DNA of 64,000 nucleotides from an uncultured Rubripirellula sp. (lineage in GTDB: Bacteria > Planctomycetota > Planctomycetia > Pirellulales > Pirellulaceae): contig CALJHC010000003.1 in assembly GCA_938075415.1 (NCBI GenBank), forward strand, positions 434,001-498,000, written 5' to 3'. This document shows, piece by piece, positions 51,529-60,908 of the stretch. A program made the position numbers and the translations under genes. Below the pieces are notes generated by a model. The model made no database searches and was not told the origin of the DNA. It worked only from the letters and a program-made list of their open reading frames with translations. Positions within the stretch are counted from its first letter, which is position 1. The number at the start of each line of letters is the position of its first letter.

Positions 51529-53445
51529 TTAGTCTCTTCTGGAGAGCTCTTTGACAGACTCAACCAATGCGATGGCATGGTCTACCGGCGTCTCTTTATG
51601 AATCCCGTGCCCGAGGTTAAAGATATGTCCATCGAGACCCTTGACAGATTCCAGGAGGGAAGCAACTTCCTCTCGAATGACATCAGGATCCGCCAAAAGT
51701 ACAGCCGGATCCAAATTGCCCTGGACCGGACAATCGTGCCCAATCCGTTTCCAAGCAACGTCCAAGGGGACTCGCCAATCCACCCCAACCACCGTGCGAC
51801 GGTCTATTCGCATCAATGGCAAAAGCTCAGGATTTCCCGTTGCGAAATTGATCACAGGTACACCCGGGGTGATACCGGCAATGATCTGCTTCATCCAAGG
51901 CAAAACAAAACGCACATAATCGGTTGACGAAAGGCAGCCCGCCCAACTGTCAAAGAGCTGAACGCACTGGGCGCCAGCGCCAATCTGCAAATTCAAATAA
52001 GTCGTGATGGCAAAAGAGAGTTTCTCCATCAAGATTTCCCAAGTCCCATCATTTGCCCGCATAAGCTTCTTGGTATTCAGATAGGTTCGACTACCGCCTC
52101 CCTCGATTGCGTAACTGGCAAGCGTGAAAGGCGAGCCAGCAAACCCAATGACGGGAATTCCCTCTGGTAGATCAGCTCTCGTATGACGCACTGTCTCGTA
52201 GACAAAATCGAGTTCCTGCGGATTTTCTAGATCACGGATACCCTTCACTCCGTCACGATCTCGAACTGGATTGTGGATCACGGGTCCATCGCCAGCGGCA
52301 AATTCCAAATCAAATCCAAGCGGAACCAGGATTGGCAGCAGGTCCGAAAAAATGATCGCTGCATCCACGCCGAGTCGATCGACAGCAGTGCACATCACCT
52401 CGCTACATAATTGCGGGTTATGGCACAGCTCTAAAAAGGAATGTTTCGCCCGAACCTCTCGGTATTCTTGCATGTACCGCCCAGCCTGACGCATCATCCA
52501 GACGGGGGTACGTTCGGTAGCCTCACCTCGACAAGCTCGGACGAAGAGACTTTGATCGGAAGGATGCTTAATTGACTGAGAGCTTGGAGCCATGATTTGC
52601 CATCGTCGTTTGGATTTCACAAGCGGCACACCTCGCTCGGCCGCTTGCACAACTAAATGCCCCATCTTGGGGTGTGTTGGCTCCAAATCAACGTGAATTT
52701 CACATTCTTCGAGCATTTGTGAAGTCGTGGGTCCGATTGAAGCGATCACCGTTCCCCGAAGCCCCTCCCGAAGAGGATCGACGAGCTGCAATCGATCTGC
52801 CGTTCGCAACAAATTCACCACCTGATGGGCACTTGTCACTAGCAAAAGATCTCTTTGCCCCGCCGCAAGTGCTCGAACATTTTCTTCCAGCAAGGTCGGA
52901 TCCACCGGAAGCTCCCATCCATAAACTCTTACCGGCTCAACAGTTGCGCCGCGAGCTTCCAGTCCAGCCACCAAGGAAGCGTTGGAAACCCCATACTCTT
53001 GCAGCCCAACCACCTGATTGGCAATTGAAACCTGCGCATCGATGGTTTGAAGCAACTCTCTCCAAGTATTGGGCTCGGGAACTCGGTGCGTTGGGGTCAA
53101 ACCGAACTCCCTCATGGCAGCGACCGGTTTAGGGCCCCTGCAAATGGTCGTCACATCGGAGAGCGCATCGAGAAATCGCTGCTTATCGAGGTGCGGCTCA
53201 ATCGCTCGAATTAAGTAACGAAAACCAACACCCGTGGTCAGAATCACGACTCCAACCTGACCGGTGATCAGCCGATAGGCAAAATCAATCGCTTCACGAT
53301 TCGGCTCAACAGGCACCTCACGCATTGAGGGACTGACAAAAGGCTCCCCACCATACTTTTGAATCATGCGTTCCATGTCTCCAGCTCGCCGACTTTCCAA
53401 AGCAGCAACTCGACAGCCCATGAAGTTGTTTGATTTCGATGACAT
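51529..53445 (-). CDS. uroporphyrinogen-III synthase fused to uroporphyrinogen decarboxylase
   Basis: 638 residues. Residues about 1-275 are HemD-like: CRVAALESRRAGDMERMIQKYGG, VVILTTGVGFRYLIRAI, PVRVYGWELP, LLLVTSAHQVVNLLRTA and VIASIGPTTSQMLEE. Residues about 285-638 are HemE: PVWMMRQAGRYMQEYREVR with the substrate-binding Arg cluster, AAIIFSDLLPILVPLGFDLEF with the catalytic Asp, GFAGSPFTLASYAIEGGGSR, QLFDSWAGCLS, VDWRVPLDVAW and FNLGHGIHKETPVDHAI. These are consecutive enzymes: HemD makes uroporphyrinogen III, HemE decarboxylates it to coproporphyrinogen III. No stop interrupts the frame. An internal ATG at 52591-52593 could start a separate HemE, but no strong ribosome site precedes it. 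Confidence 0.92.
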   Translation of the reverse strand: MSSKSNNFMGCRVAALESRRAGDMERMIQKYGGEPFVSPSMREVPVEPNREAIDFAYRLITGQVGVVILTTGVGFRYLIRAIEPHLDKQRFLDALSDVTTICRGPKPVAAMREFGLTPTHRVPEPNTWRELLQTIDAQVSIANQVVGLQEYGVSNASLVAGLEARGATVEPVRVYGWELPVDPTLLEENVRALAAGQRDLLLVTSAHQVVNLLRTADRLQLVDPLREGLRGTVIASIGPTTSQMLEECEIHVDLEPTHPKMGHLVVQAAERGVPLVKSKRRWQIMAPSSQSIKHPSDQSLFVRACRGEATERTPVWMMRQAGRYMQEYREVRAKHSFLELCHNPQLCSEVMCTAVDRLGVDAAIIFSDLLPILVPLGFDLEFAAGDGPVIHNPVRDRDGVKGIRDLENPQELDFVYETVRHTRADLPEGIPVIGFAGSPFTLASYAIEGGGSRTYLNTKKLMRANDGTWEILMEKLSFAITTYLNLQIGAGAQCVQLFDSWAGCLSSTDYVRFVLPWMKQIIAGITPGVPVINFATGNPELLPLMRIDRRTVVGVDWRVPLDVAWKRIGHDCPVQGNLDPAVLLADPDVIREEVASLLESVKGLDGHIFNLGHGIHKETPVDHAIALVESVKELSRRD

Positions 53446-57070: not shown

Positions 57071-59395
57071 ATGAATCCTCGAATACGCGCCGGAAGTATT
57101 CCCGTGATGCTCATACGCACCGTGATCGTCCTGGGATTCCTCTCGGCATCTTGCTCTGATCTTTCAGGTCTTGCTGATGAGGCGACCGATCAAATAACGA
57201 ATGCAACGGAGGAAAAAGCCCCGAGCATTTCAAGGCCGAAAACCTTTGAGAGTATCGAAGAACTGACAAGGTACATTGGACCCTCCATCGTTACGATTCG
57301 CGTGAAGGGACGCGATGGAGAGGAGCTGTCAATTGGAACAGGTTTTGTCCTCAGTGCTGATGGGCAAATTGTCACCAATGCCCATGTGATCGGGGAGGGT
57401 AGATCTTTCACGATTGAACTGCCCTCAGGACGTGCATTGCCGGTCACTGAAGTTGAATCCACAGACCAAACTGCAGATCTGGCTGTCATCCGAGTCGATG
57501 TCGGCGATGCTCCTTTAACTCCGTTGAAACGACGGGAGACCAAGATTGCGCAGGGAACGCGGGTTGCCGCCTATGGAAACCCGCTCGGATTGCGCGACAG
57601 CGTCGTCGCTGGCATTGTCTCAGCCATTCGAGAAGTGCAGGGCAGAGAGCTGATCCAGTTAGCCATGCCGATTCAGCCAGGCAACAGTGGCGGACCTCTG
57701 GTTGATATGCAGGGCAACGTTCGTGGAATCATCAACATGAAGTCAGCCGTCGATGACAACCTCGGATTCGCGATACCGATTGATCAATTAACACCAATCC
57801 TCTCGCAACCGCATCCAGTCAGCTACAACCGCTGGGTAACACTTGGCCGCATGGACCCCAAATCATGGACAACGCAATTTGGTGCGTCTTGGCAACAACG
57901 TGGTGGCGTTATCTCTGCTCGCGGATCAGGCCAGGGATTTGGTGGTCGTTCTCTGTGCCTTTCGAAACGCCAGCCATTGGATTTGCCGATGGAGATTGCC
58001 GTTGACGTCCGGCTGGACGATGAATCCGGGGCTGCCGGGCTAGCGTTCTGCTCCGATGGTAACAATCGACATTACGGTTTTTACCCAAGCAACGGAAATC
58101 TACGACTAACCTGCTTCAAAGGTCCTTCGGTTTACACGTGGGAAGTCCTTGCTGATCTCAATAGCAATCAATATCAACCGAAGAAATGGAATCGCCTTCG
58201 CGTTCGAATCGAAAAGGATCGTTTCCTATGTTTCGTAAACGACGAGCTATTGATTGAATCAAAGGATTCACAATTAACAGGCGGGTCCGTCGGGCTGGTT
58301 AAATTTCGTGAAACCCAACCAGATTTCAAGCGATTCCAGGTGGGTAAAGACCTCGCAATACCTGCTCTGACCTCCGCCCAAGAAGACCTGATTACTCGAG
58401 CCATCAGCAAGAATGGCCCGATCGATGATCAAGATGAAACGACGGTTCAGTTACTCGCGGAATCCAGCGAGGCAGTTAGCCGCAAGCTTGAGAAGCGAGC
58501 AGCAAATCTCGAAAAAAACATCCAGCAACTGCGCCGTCTGGCAAACGATATTGAACTGGCACCAACCCTGCTGGCCTTACGAAAAACCTTTGAAGATCCG
58601 CTGGCGGCTAAGGATCAACTTTTCAGGGGAGCGTTACTGATTGCAAAGATCGATAACCCCGATACGGATCCGAGCGCGTACATGAAGAAAGTTGAATCCA
58701 TGGCCTCCGAAATCCGTGAAGGGATCGGCAAGGATTTCAGCGATGAACAAAAACGCAAACAATTAGATCAATATCTATTCAACGAAAACGGCTTTCGCGG
58801 TGGAAGTTCAGAATATTACCACCCCGCCAACAGCCATCTAGATCGTGTGATTGATGAACGAGAAGGGTTACCAATCACCCTTTCCATCCTCTACATGGAA
58901 CTGGGGCGCCGAATCGGATTAACGATGGAAGGTATTGGCCTTCCGGGGCATTTTGTCGTCCGCCATCTCTTCGAAAACGATGACCAACAACTGATTGATG
59001 TATTTGATCGTGGCAAAACACTCTCCAGCCAAGATAGCGAACAAATCGTCCGTGATTTTGCAAATCGCGAACTGGTAACCTCAGACCTGATCGCTCAGAG
59101 TGACCAGCAAATTCTCTCCCGAGTGCTGAACAACCTTCTCAGCATCGCGAGAAGAGATTCGGACACCGAGGCATTTCGTCGATACTGCGAGGCGCTCGTT
59201 GCAATCGCTCCTGAAGATCCGGAAGCGAGAATCATGCGTTCCCAAGCAAGGGCCCAAACCAAACGTTTTCAGGGTGCGGTTGAAGATGTCAATTGGCTAA
59301 TCGAACGCATCCCTGAAGGAGTCAATCGAGCACAGGCTATTCAACTCAGAGATTCTCTTCTGGAAAGCCAGTCTCGTGAGTCCGAGGTAGACTGA
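57071..59395 (+). CDS. secreted trypsin-like protease fused to DUF1080-like and SirB1 (transglutaminase-like) domains
   Basis: 774 residues from the ATG at 57071 (GGAA 6 bases upstream). N-terminal signal or membrane helix (about 13-28, possible poor lipobox SAS before Cys28). Residues about 60-250: HtrA-type protease with His in VTNAHVIGEG (about 105), Asp in QTADLAVIRVD (about 136) and Ser in QPGNSGGPLV (about 206). No PDZ follows. Residues about 262-420: jelly-roll domain like DUF1080 (RWVTLGRMDPKSWTT, RHYGFYPSNGNLRLTC, WNRLRVRIEKDRFLCFVNDELL). Residues about 430-770: SirB1-type (LFNENGFRGGSSEYYHPANSHLDRVIDEREGLPITL, GLPGHFVVRH) and a TPR-like tail. Each module is well supported by motif; their joint function is unknown. 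Confidence 0.85.
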   Translation: MNPRIRAGSIPVMLIRTVIVLGFLSASCSDLSGLADEATDQITNATEEKAPSISRPKTFESIEELTRYIGPSIVTIRVKGRDGEELSIGTGFVLSADGQIVTNAHVIGEGRSFTIELPSGRALPVTEVESTDQTADLAVIRVDVGDAPLTPLKRRETKIAQGTRVAAYGNPLGLRDSVVAGIVSAIREVQGRELIQLAMPIQPGNSGGPLVDMQGNVRGIINMKSAVDDNLGFAIPIDQLTPILSQPHPVSYNRWVTLGRMDPKSWTTQFGASWQQRGGVISARGSGQGFGGRSLCLSKRQPLDLPMEIAVDVRLDDESGAAGLAFCSDGNNRHYGFYPSNGNLRLTCFKGPSVYTWEVLADLNSNQYQPKKWNRLRVRIEKDRFLCFVNDELLIESKDSQLTGGSVGLVKFRETQPDFKRFQVGKDLAIPALTSAQEDLITRAISKNGPIDDQDETTVQLLAESSEAVSRKLEKRAANLEKNIQQLRRLANDIELAPTLLALRKTFEDPLAAKDQLFRGALLIAKIDNPDTDPSAYMKKVESMASEIREGIGKDFSDEQKRKQLDQYLFNENGFRGGSSEYYHPANSHLDRVIDEREGLPITLSILYMELGRRIGLTMEGIGLPGHFVVRHLFENDDQQLIDVFDRGKTLSSQDSEQIVRDFANRELVTSDLIAQSDQQILSRVLNNLLSIARRDSDTEAFRRYCEALVAIAPEDPEARIMRSQARAQTKRFQGAVEDVNWLIERIPEGVNRAQAIQLRDSLLESQSRESEVD

Positions 59396-59429: not shown

Positions 59430-60908
59430 ATGATTCACCATCAAAAGAACTTCACCCGCTGTAACCAAATAGTCATGTTTGCATTGGCTTTTTGGGCATC
59501 CGCAGTGACGTCGCAAGCAGCCTCGCGTCCGAATATCGTATTCTTTCTGGTTGACGACTTGGGATGGTCCGATCTCGCTTGTTACGGAAGCAAATTCCAC
59601 GCGACCCCACACATCGACAGGCTGGCCAAAAACGGTTTGCGGTTCACTCAAGGTTACGCAGCTTGCTCGGTTTGCTCACCGACTCGAGCAAGCATCTTAA
59701 CGGGACGCTATCCAGCACGACTTGGAATCACGGACTTCATCCCGGGCATGCGTGCCACGAGTGCGATGAAACCCAGGTTCAAACATATAGAAGATCGTGA
59801 TAACCTCGACTTAAGGGAAGTCACGCTGGCTGAATACCTCAAATCCGAAGGAAACTACCAAACGCATTTCCTCGGAAAATGGCACCTTGGTAAAGAAGGG
59901 CACTGGCCGACCGATCAAGGATTTGATGAAAACATTGGCGGGAATGAAAAAGGATCGCCCCCGGGTGGCTACTACGGACCCTGGAACAACCCAACACTCA
60001 AAGCGAAAAATCAAGGCGAGTATCTGACCACCCGCCTAACTGACGAAGCAATCAGAATCATCTCTGATTCGAAAAGCTCTCAGCCATTCCTTCTCTACTT
60101 CAGTTATTACAACGTCCACACCCCCATCCAAGCTGACATCAGATCGATCGAAAAGTTCCGTTCGATAGCAGCAACTCAATTCACGGGTCCAACTCCCCTT
60201 ATCAAACATCGCGGTTCGTTAAGCCGCGGCAGGCAGGACAACCCGGAATTTGCTTCCATGGTTTCGGCAGTGGACACAAGTGTTGGACGGGTGATCGATG
60301 CATTAGAACAATCGGGCATGACAGAAGAAACAATCATCATTTTCTTCTCGGACAACGGAGGTCTTTGCACGCGGCCAGATTCTGGAAAATCGAAGGTGGG
60401 GCCAACCTCTAACTTGCCACTTCGAAGTGGTAAAGGCTGGCTCTACGAAGGTGGCATCCGCGAACCTTTAATTATCAGAGTACCCGGGATGACAAATCCC
60501 GGAACCCAATGCGATACGCCGGTGATCAGCATGGATTTCTTCCCCACAATCATTGAACTCGCTGGTCTGCCACTCGCGCCAAAACTCCACGTGGATGGGA
60601 TCAGCTTGGTCCCGCTGCTCAAAGGCGAACCGCTGCACCAGGCAAGAAGCCTGTATTGGCACTACCCGCACTACCATGGATCGGGCTGGAGACCCGGTGC
60701 GGCAATACGCGAAAACGACTGGAAACTAATCGAATTCTACGAGTCGGATGAAACTGAACTCTACGATCTTTCAAATGACTCCGCCGAGAGAAACGATCTA
60801 TCGACACAATTTCCCGACGAAACCATACGCCTGAAAGCAAAATTATCCGAGTGGCAATCCTCAATCGGCGCCGCCATGCCCGAGGAACGCCCCAAACCAG
60901 ATATCTAG
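59430..60908 (+). CDS. sulfatase, Cys-type (secreted)
   Basis: 492 residues. A signal peptide (hydrophobic core about 17-30, cleavage likely after SQA) precedes [21 protein letters not shown], the metal-binding Asp pair. [16 protein letters not shown] is the formylglycine motif (C-x-P-x-R), so activation by a sulfatase-modifying enzyme is expected. Further: [21 protein letters not shown], and [13 protein letters not shown]. It removes sulfate from sulfated esters, probably algal polysaccharides. The substrate cannot be predicted. It follows the protease fusion gene by 34 bp on the same strand, and may share its transcript. Confidence 0.94.

Follow-up and report, generated by a model that had tools for sequence, protein, structure and literature searches.

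A conserved fusion of a PDZ-less HtrA-type protease to a CBM66-like jelly roll and a cysteine-less SirB1 module

Introduction

PDZ domains of HtrA-type proteases such as DegS, DegP and HtrA1 present substrates or peptides to the protease or activate it. What could take their place in a protease of this type that carries no PDZ domain is the question raised by one gene in the 64,000-nucleotide stretch of DNA analysed here (the window). The original prediction, made by reading the sequence, was of a secreted protein in which a PDZ-less HtrA-type protease is followed by a DUF1080-type jelly roll and by a cysteine-protease-like SirB1 domain with TPR-like helices, encoded just upstream of a sulfatase. 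The domain architecture, a variant of the HtrA-type protease, is apparently undescribed, and in the literature searched we found no paper describing either the fusion or the resemblance of SirB1 to menin that is presented below. SirB1 (PF13369) modules are widespread, occurring in E. coli SirB1, in human FBXO21 and in 192 of 294 genomes drawn from the source phylum, Planctomycetota, and their function has been described as unknown (PMC10318531). The fusion gives a first testable idea of what such a module may do.

Results

Layout of the gene and its modules

The gene is an uninterrupted open reading frame (57071–59395, +) that translates into 774 aa, with its modules in the order export signal, HtrA-type protease, jelly roll and SirB1 module (Transglut_core2 plus TPR). 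Conservation is given throughout as counts in an alignment of 53 full-length relatives. The N-terminal export signal region (about aa 1–30; 57071..57160, +), read from the sequence, is a hydrophobic stretch followed by LSGLA/DE, and a simple hydropathy test found a hydrophobic segment ahead of the protease core in 49/53 relatives, the other four being borderline. This segment suggests that the protein is probably exported, as had been proposed.

The HtrA-type trypsin domain (aa 60–246; 57248..57808, +) was delimited from Pfam and NCBIfam matches, a phmmer search of the PDB, VIA and conservation among the 53 sequences; within it, Trypsin_2 of Pfam covers aa 89–220 (E 7e-27) and the HtrA/Deg models of NCBIfam align to aa 64–246. 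The CBM66-like jelly roll (aa 256–428; 57836..58354, +) follows, outlined by a profile search of the PDB, a sub-threshold PF06439 match and the strands present in the AlphaFold model. Long helices (aa 466–528; 58466..58654, +), taken from the AlphaFold secondary structure, join it to the SirB1 transglutaminase-like domain (aa 536–687; 58676..59131, +), which is supported by alignments, by AlphaFold and by a Pfam match to Transglut_core2 (PF13369; E 1.6e-40, 138.6 bits against a cut-off of 23.5). The TPR region of the module (aa 690–756; 59138..59338, +) rests on helices in the model, on TPR_9 (E 1e-6, under its curated cut-off) and on the SirB1 equivalog model of NCBIfam, which aligned over aa 514–750, under its equivalog cut-off. 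A SirB1 domain with TPR helices is thus present as predicted, and the GLPGHFVVRH signature noted earlier lies at aa 623–632. No PDZ family in Pfam or NCBIfam matched the 774-aa protein, in which aa 256–774 are taken up by the jelly roll and SirB1.

AlphaFold models of the whole protein and of aa 430–774 were both built on six sequences. At a pTM of only 0.47, the whole-protein model does not fix how the modules sit relative to one another, and gating of the protease is not visible in it.

A protease domain without PDZ and with shortened loops

The triad of H105, D136 and S206 is complete and each residue is conserved in 53/53 relatives, S206, the serine named in the original prediction, being that of GNSGGP. 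This invariance indicates that selection maintains the protease as an enzyme, and the domain is likely to be proteolytically active. By sequence it matches HtrA2 and HtrA1 (PDB phmmer, E 4e-24), and the model matches HtrA1 (3tjn) with a Z of 25.9 over 184 residues at an rmsd of 1.8 (VIA). The HtrA-type protease domain also accounted for the sole matches in a search of plasmids.

Like the HtrA/Deg proteins (HtrA1/HtrA2, DegS, DegP), the protein has a trypsin-fold domain with an H/D/S triad and is probably exported; unlike them, it has no PDZ domain and carries two extra modules. Further differences emerged when the domain was compared with four canonical HtrA paralogues that the genome also encodes: the LA and L3 loops are shortened, L2 is shorter by 3, and QLAMPI replaces QTDAAI. 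An invariant lysine, K224 (53/53), aligns at or beside the S1 pocket, where gap placement is ambiguous; it could give the protease a preference for acidic P1 residues. In DegS the PDZ domain is sensed by the L3 loop, and a shortened L3 would fit a protease that is no longer ruled by PDZ. Together, the cut-short LA and L3 and the shorter L2 fit a loss of PDZ control. Judged by these features, the protein is HtrA-like in its protease domain and is not a canonical HtrA.

The fusion is conserved and most likely arose once

A local assembly error, with modules split among close homologues, would have explained the unusual frame. An assembly or frame error is ruled out by the recurrence of the full-length protein in several families and in two phyla, and chance does not explain dozens of independent genomes that keep this domain order in a single frame; the predicted three-module order is therefore borne out. 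The only SirB1 domain of the source genome (5.96 Mb) belongs to its single copy of the fused protein, which was likewise single-copy per genome in the searches made. Within its own family it occurs in 57 of 149 genomes, in two of them as pieces. The phylum-wide draw of 294 genomes added 15 genomes of one other family, nearly all of those sampled there, and a few further families. Named relatives include Rubripirellula sp. (59% and 54%) and Rhodopirellula maiorica (52%); two metagenome-assembled genomes filed under Verrucomicrobiota names hold relatives at 39–40%, and across the phylum of the Verrucomicrobiota relative the fused protein was found in 7 of 241 genomes.

When 97 SirB1 modules were placed in a maximum-likelihood tree, the 64 fused ones formed one clade (100/100), inside which the Verrucomicrobiota modules form a sub-clade (100/98). 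The sole unfused row in the fused clade, L031, comes from a short locus, and its frame of 271 aa is probably a contig-end fragment. Since all fused modules fall in one clade, a single origin of the fusion, followed by its retention, is most likely. Outside the three-part protein, a search for the middle domain in 199 genomes returned nothing save one weak, remote, kinase-linked match; this restriction and the single clade indicate that the three modules are passed on together. The remote match, the only one outside the family, is a protein in which a protein kinase and a DUF1080/laminin-G jelly roll share one frame (L145:3225–6104, −).

The jelly roll resembles a binding module

When a six-sequence profile of the jelly roll was searched against the PDB (hmmsearch), the CBM66 of a levanase (4b1l) came first at E 1.2e-7 and the next match, the putative glycosyl hydrolase 3imm, followed at E 0.02. 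The match to the CBM66 of Bacillus levanase (4b1l/4azz/4b1m) extends over the jelly roll, although the module is joined here to a protease and there to a glycoside hydrolase. CBM66 and DUF1080 annotations overlap within one jelly-roll superfamily (PMC5673643), and within this genome hhalign links the domain to the DUF1080 domains with a probability of 97.9%.

This shared superfamily membership makes it conceivable that the jelly roll acts as a catalytic DUF1080 domain (3-keto-disaccharide hydrolase, PF06439) that degrades glycans together with the sulfatase while the protease processes glycoproteins; planctomycete DUF1080 proteins have been linked to xanthan degradation (PMC5673643), and sulfatase neighbours recur within the genus. 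We nonetheless regard this explanation as improbable. The Pfam match to 3keto-disac_hyd/DUF1080, at aa 354–403 (E 0.002, 18.5 bits), lies under the cut-off of 26.8 and is the weakest of the 37 PF06439 matches in the genome. Two hallmarks present in 19 DUF1080 domains from this genome are altered, NSG to AAG (aa 321–323) and LQxH to LxKF. The genome's roughly 150 sulfatases and the lack of a conserved operon (see below) also weigh against a partnership in glycan degradation. We do not read the domain as a DUF1080 enzyme, since AAG replaces NSG and the nearest solved structure is that of a binding module. The jelly roll of the original prediction stands and the DUF1080 enzyme does not; the best reading is a putative carbohydrate-type binding module. 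Ligands of CBM66 members are the ends of fructan or modified xanthan (PMC11002231), and the predicted relation to these modules suggests that this jelly roll, too, may bind a glycan.

The highest local conservation of the whole protein falls in this domain, where HYGFYPS, W266, W274 and C387 are strongly conserved, the last three being invariant; W255 lies just ahead of it. C387 may form a disulfide with C296 (45/53).

The neighbouring sulfatase is not a conserved partner

The ATG of the sulfatase gene (59430..60908, +; PF00884, E 4e-58) lies at 59430, 34 bp after the protease-SirB1 gene. An orthologous sulfatase (63–65%) is found downstream in several members of the genus and another is divergently upstream in others; the closest relatives (L097, L185 and L186) have no adjacent sulfatase, and in 20 relatives the surrounding genes have no family in common other than scattered sulfatases. 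With at least 150 sulfatase matches in the source genome, besides its 37 DUF1080-type matches, a sulfatase neighbour is unremarkable. We therefore rejected an operon with the sulfatase: the predicted 34-bp spacing is correct, and the link is at most a genus-level habit that makes only a weak case for a partner role. A 1303-aa frame that fuses the protein to a sulfatase in L074 and L182 reads through a run of N and is artefactual. No Rfam element was found near the protease-SirB1 gene. Elsewhere in the window, a 638-aa frame (51529–53445, −) combines uroporphyrinogen-III synthase (HemD, PF02602) with uroporphyrinogen decarboxylase (HemE, PF01208).

The SirB1 module has lost its cysteine

Alignment of the superfamily placed RGYC of three TPR-type relatives at the nucleophile column, where SirB1-type modules read RxG(I/L)P and the fused proteins have Pro601 in 53/53 cases. 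No conserved cysteine is found within aa 536–690 of the 53-sequence alignment. As proline stands where Cys-bearing relatives have their cysteine, the SirB1 module is not a transglutaminase or cysteine protease, and the cysteine-protease-like enzyme of the original prediction falls away. The three relatives that keep the cysteine are TPR proteins (L137:2751–4490, +; L144:1768–3447, −; L136:2100–3920, −), which indicates that PF13369 holds both possibly active and Cys-less branches.

The other two members of the old triad are mostly retained, H627 in 50/53 and D643 in 53/53, which leaves room for some chemistry. One could thus imagine a bifunctional protein whose SirB1 module is an enzyme of an unrecognised, Cys-free mechanism working through His627 and Asp643, for instance a hydrolase or deamidase. 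We hold this to be very improbable: besides the invariant proline and the missing cysteine, H627 is replaced by N, R or K in three relatives whose protein is otherwise intact, and the human SirB1-type protein FBXO21, which belongs to this family, has been described as inactive (PMC10318531). An enzymatic reading is thus not supported for the SirB1 part, nor is it for the DUF1080 part.

With E. coli SirB1 and human FBXO21 the module shares its full extent, the GIP/GLP and PGHF motifs and the absence of a catalytic cysteine. It differs from the family, whose members are usually free proteins of 230–320 aa, in forming the end of a probably exported protease and in belonging to a separate clade. 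Its near-invariant core comprises N587, S588, R597, E598, G599, P601, P625, F628 and D643.

The predicted fold of the SirB1 module resembles menin

A fold search with the full protein was swamped by HtrA matches, and we therefore modelled the SirB1 module separately (AlphaFold, aa 430–774; pLDDT 86, pTM 0.81). A sequence search found no solved SirB1 structure. With this model, Foldseek returned menin first (E 1.2e-3). In VIA-align the first 39 rows were menin, with Z up to 13.3 over 243–256 residues at only 9–10% identity and an rmsd of about 5–7 Å, a score that helix-rich models may approach (Z of about 13) through common arrangement. The alignment with menin spans both the transglutaminase-like and the TPR parts of the model; transglutaminase TglA reached Z 10.3 over 157 residues of the transglutaminase part only, and TPR proteins reached about 10. 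The prediction thus supports both the fold and its resemblance to menin.

Menin is a human peptide receptor whose transglutaminase fold is catalytically dead. In it, a transglutaminase-like thumb and a TPR palm hold a peptide pocket (PMC13256885). The SirB1 module shares the order of a Cys-less transglutaminase-like domain followed by TPR helices, and menin is its best solved match over both parts; it differs in lacking detectable sequence similarity and a fingers domain, and in being bacterial and probably extracytoplasmic. The menin-like arrangement, as modelled, suggests that the SirB1 module has a ligand.

Discussion

Our favoured reading, held tentatively and at slightly less than an even chance, is that the protein is a secreted protease of the HtrA kind in which two non-catalytic receptor modules, a CBM66-like tether and a SirB1 peptide receptor that gates the protease, have taken the place of PDZ. 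The jelly roll would anchor the enzyme on a polysaccharide, which is probably part of the cell surface or of the glycan on which the cell feeds. The SirB1 module, a Cys-less transglutaminase fold set on TPR helices in a menin-like manner, would bind peptides or unfolded protein and either hand them to the H105/D136/S206 protease or switch it on.

The same architecture could instead describe a polysaccharide-associated protease held on the matrix by the jelly roll and the long helices. Its SirB1/TPR part would then be only a structural or oligomerisation scaffold, which builds multimers and binds no substrate peptides. HtrA proteins act as trimers or larger cages, the models contain a long helix at aa 466–508, and the jelly roll is better conserved than the SirB1/TPR part, all of which such a scaffold would accommodate. 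We think it rather unlikely, as the near-invariance of core residues between N587 and D643 goes beyond the needs of a spacer and the menin-like arrangement points to a ligand. A further consideration comes by analogy. SirB1 modules appear to recur beside proteolysis: FBXO21 is an F-box protein that mediates the degradation of EID1 (PMC10318531), and SirB1/Transglut_core2 and YccV appear in the domain maps that a study of plastid Clp interactors gives for its protein families (PMC8889267). Such settings would favour a receptor over a spacer.

Under the gated-receptor reading, SirB1 would be a second means, besides PDZ, of controlling HtrA-type proteases. More doubtful is a wider proposal, that SirB1 modules in general are bacterial menin-type peptide receptors and that this HtrA-like branch uses one in place of PDZ, choosing substrates or sensing misfolded protein at a polysaccharide surface. 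The conserved fusion to a protease and the menin-like fold nonetheless pose a concrete question: do SirB1 modules bind peptides and deliver them to proteases?

Among the other long SirB1 frames that we screened with Pfam, which comprise a kinase fusion and TPR proteins, none contains a protease. The kinase fusion, from another planctomycete, combines a protein kinase (PF00069), TPR and SirB1 (Transglut_core2) (L133:337–2286, −). In two genera of Pirellulaceae (L171–L174), a free SirB1 gene of 227–229 aa is located some 3 kb away from the fused one; its product has no obvious signal peptide, and it adjoins a dnaG-like primase gene, the primase being recognised by eye.
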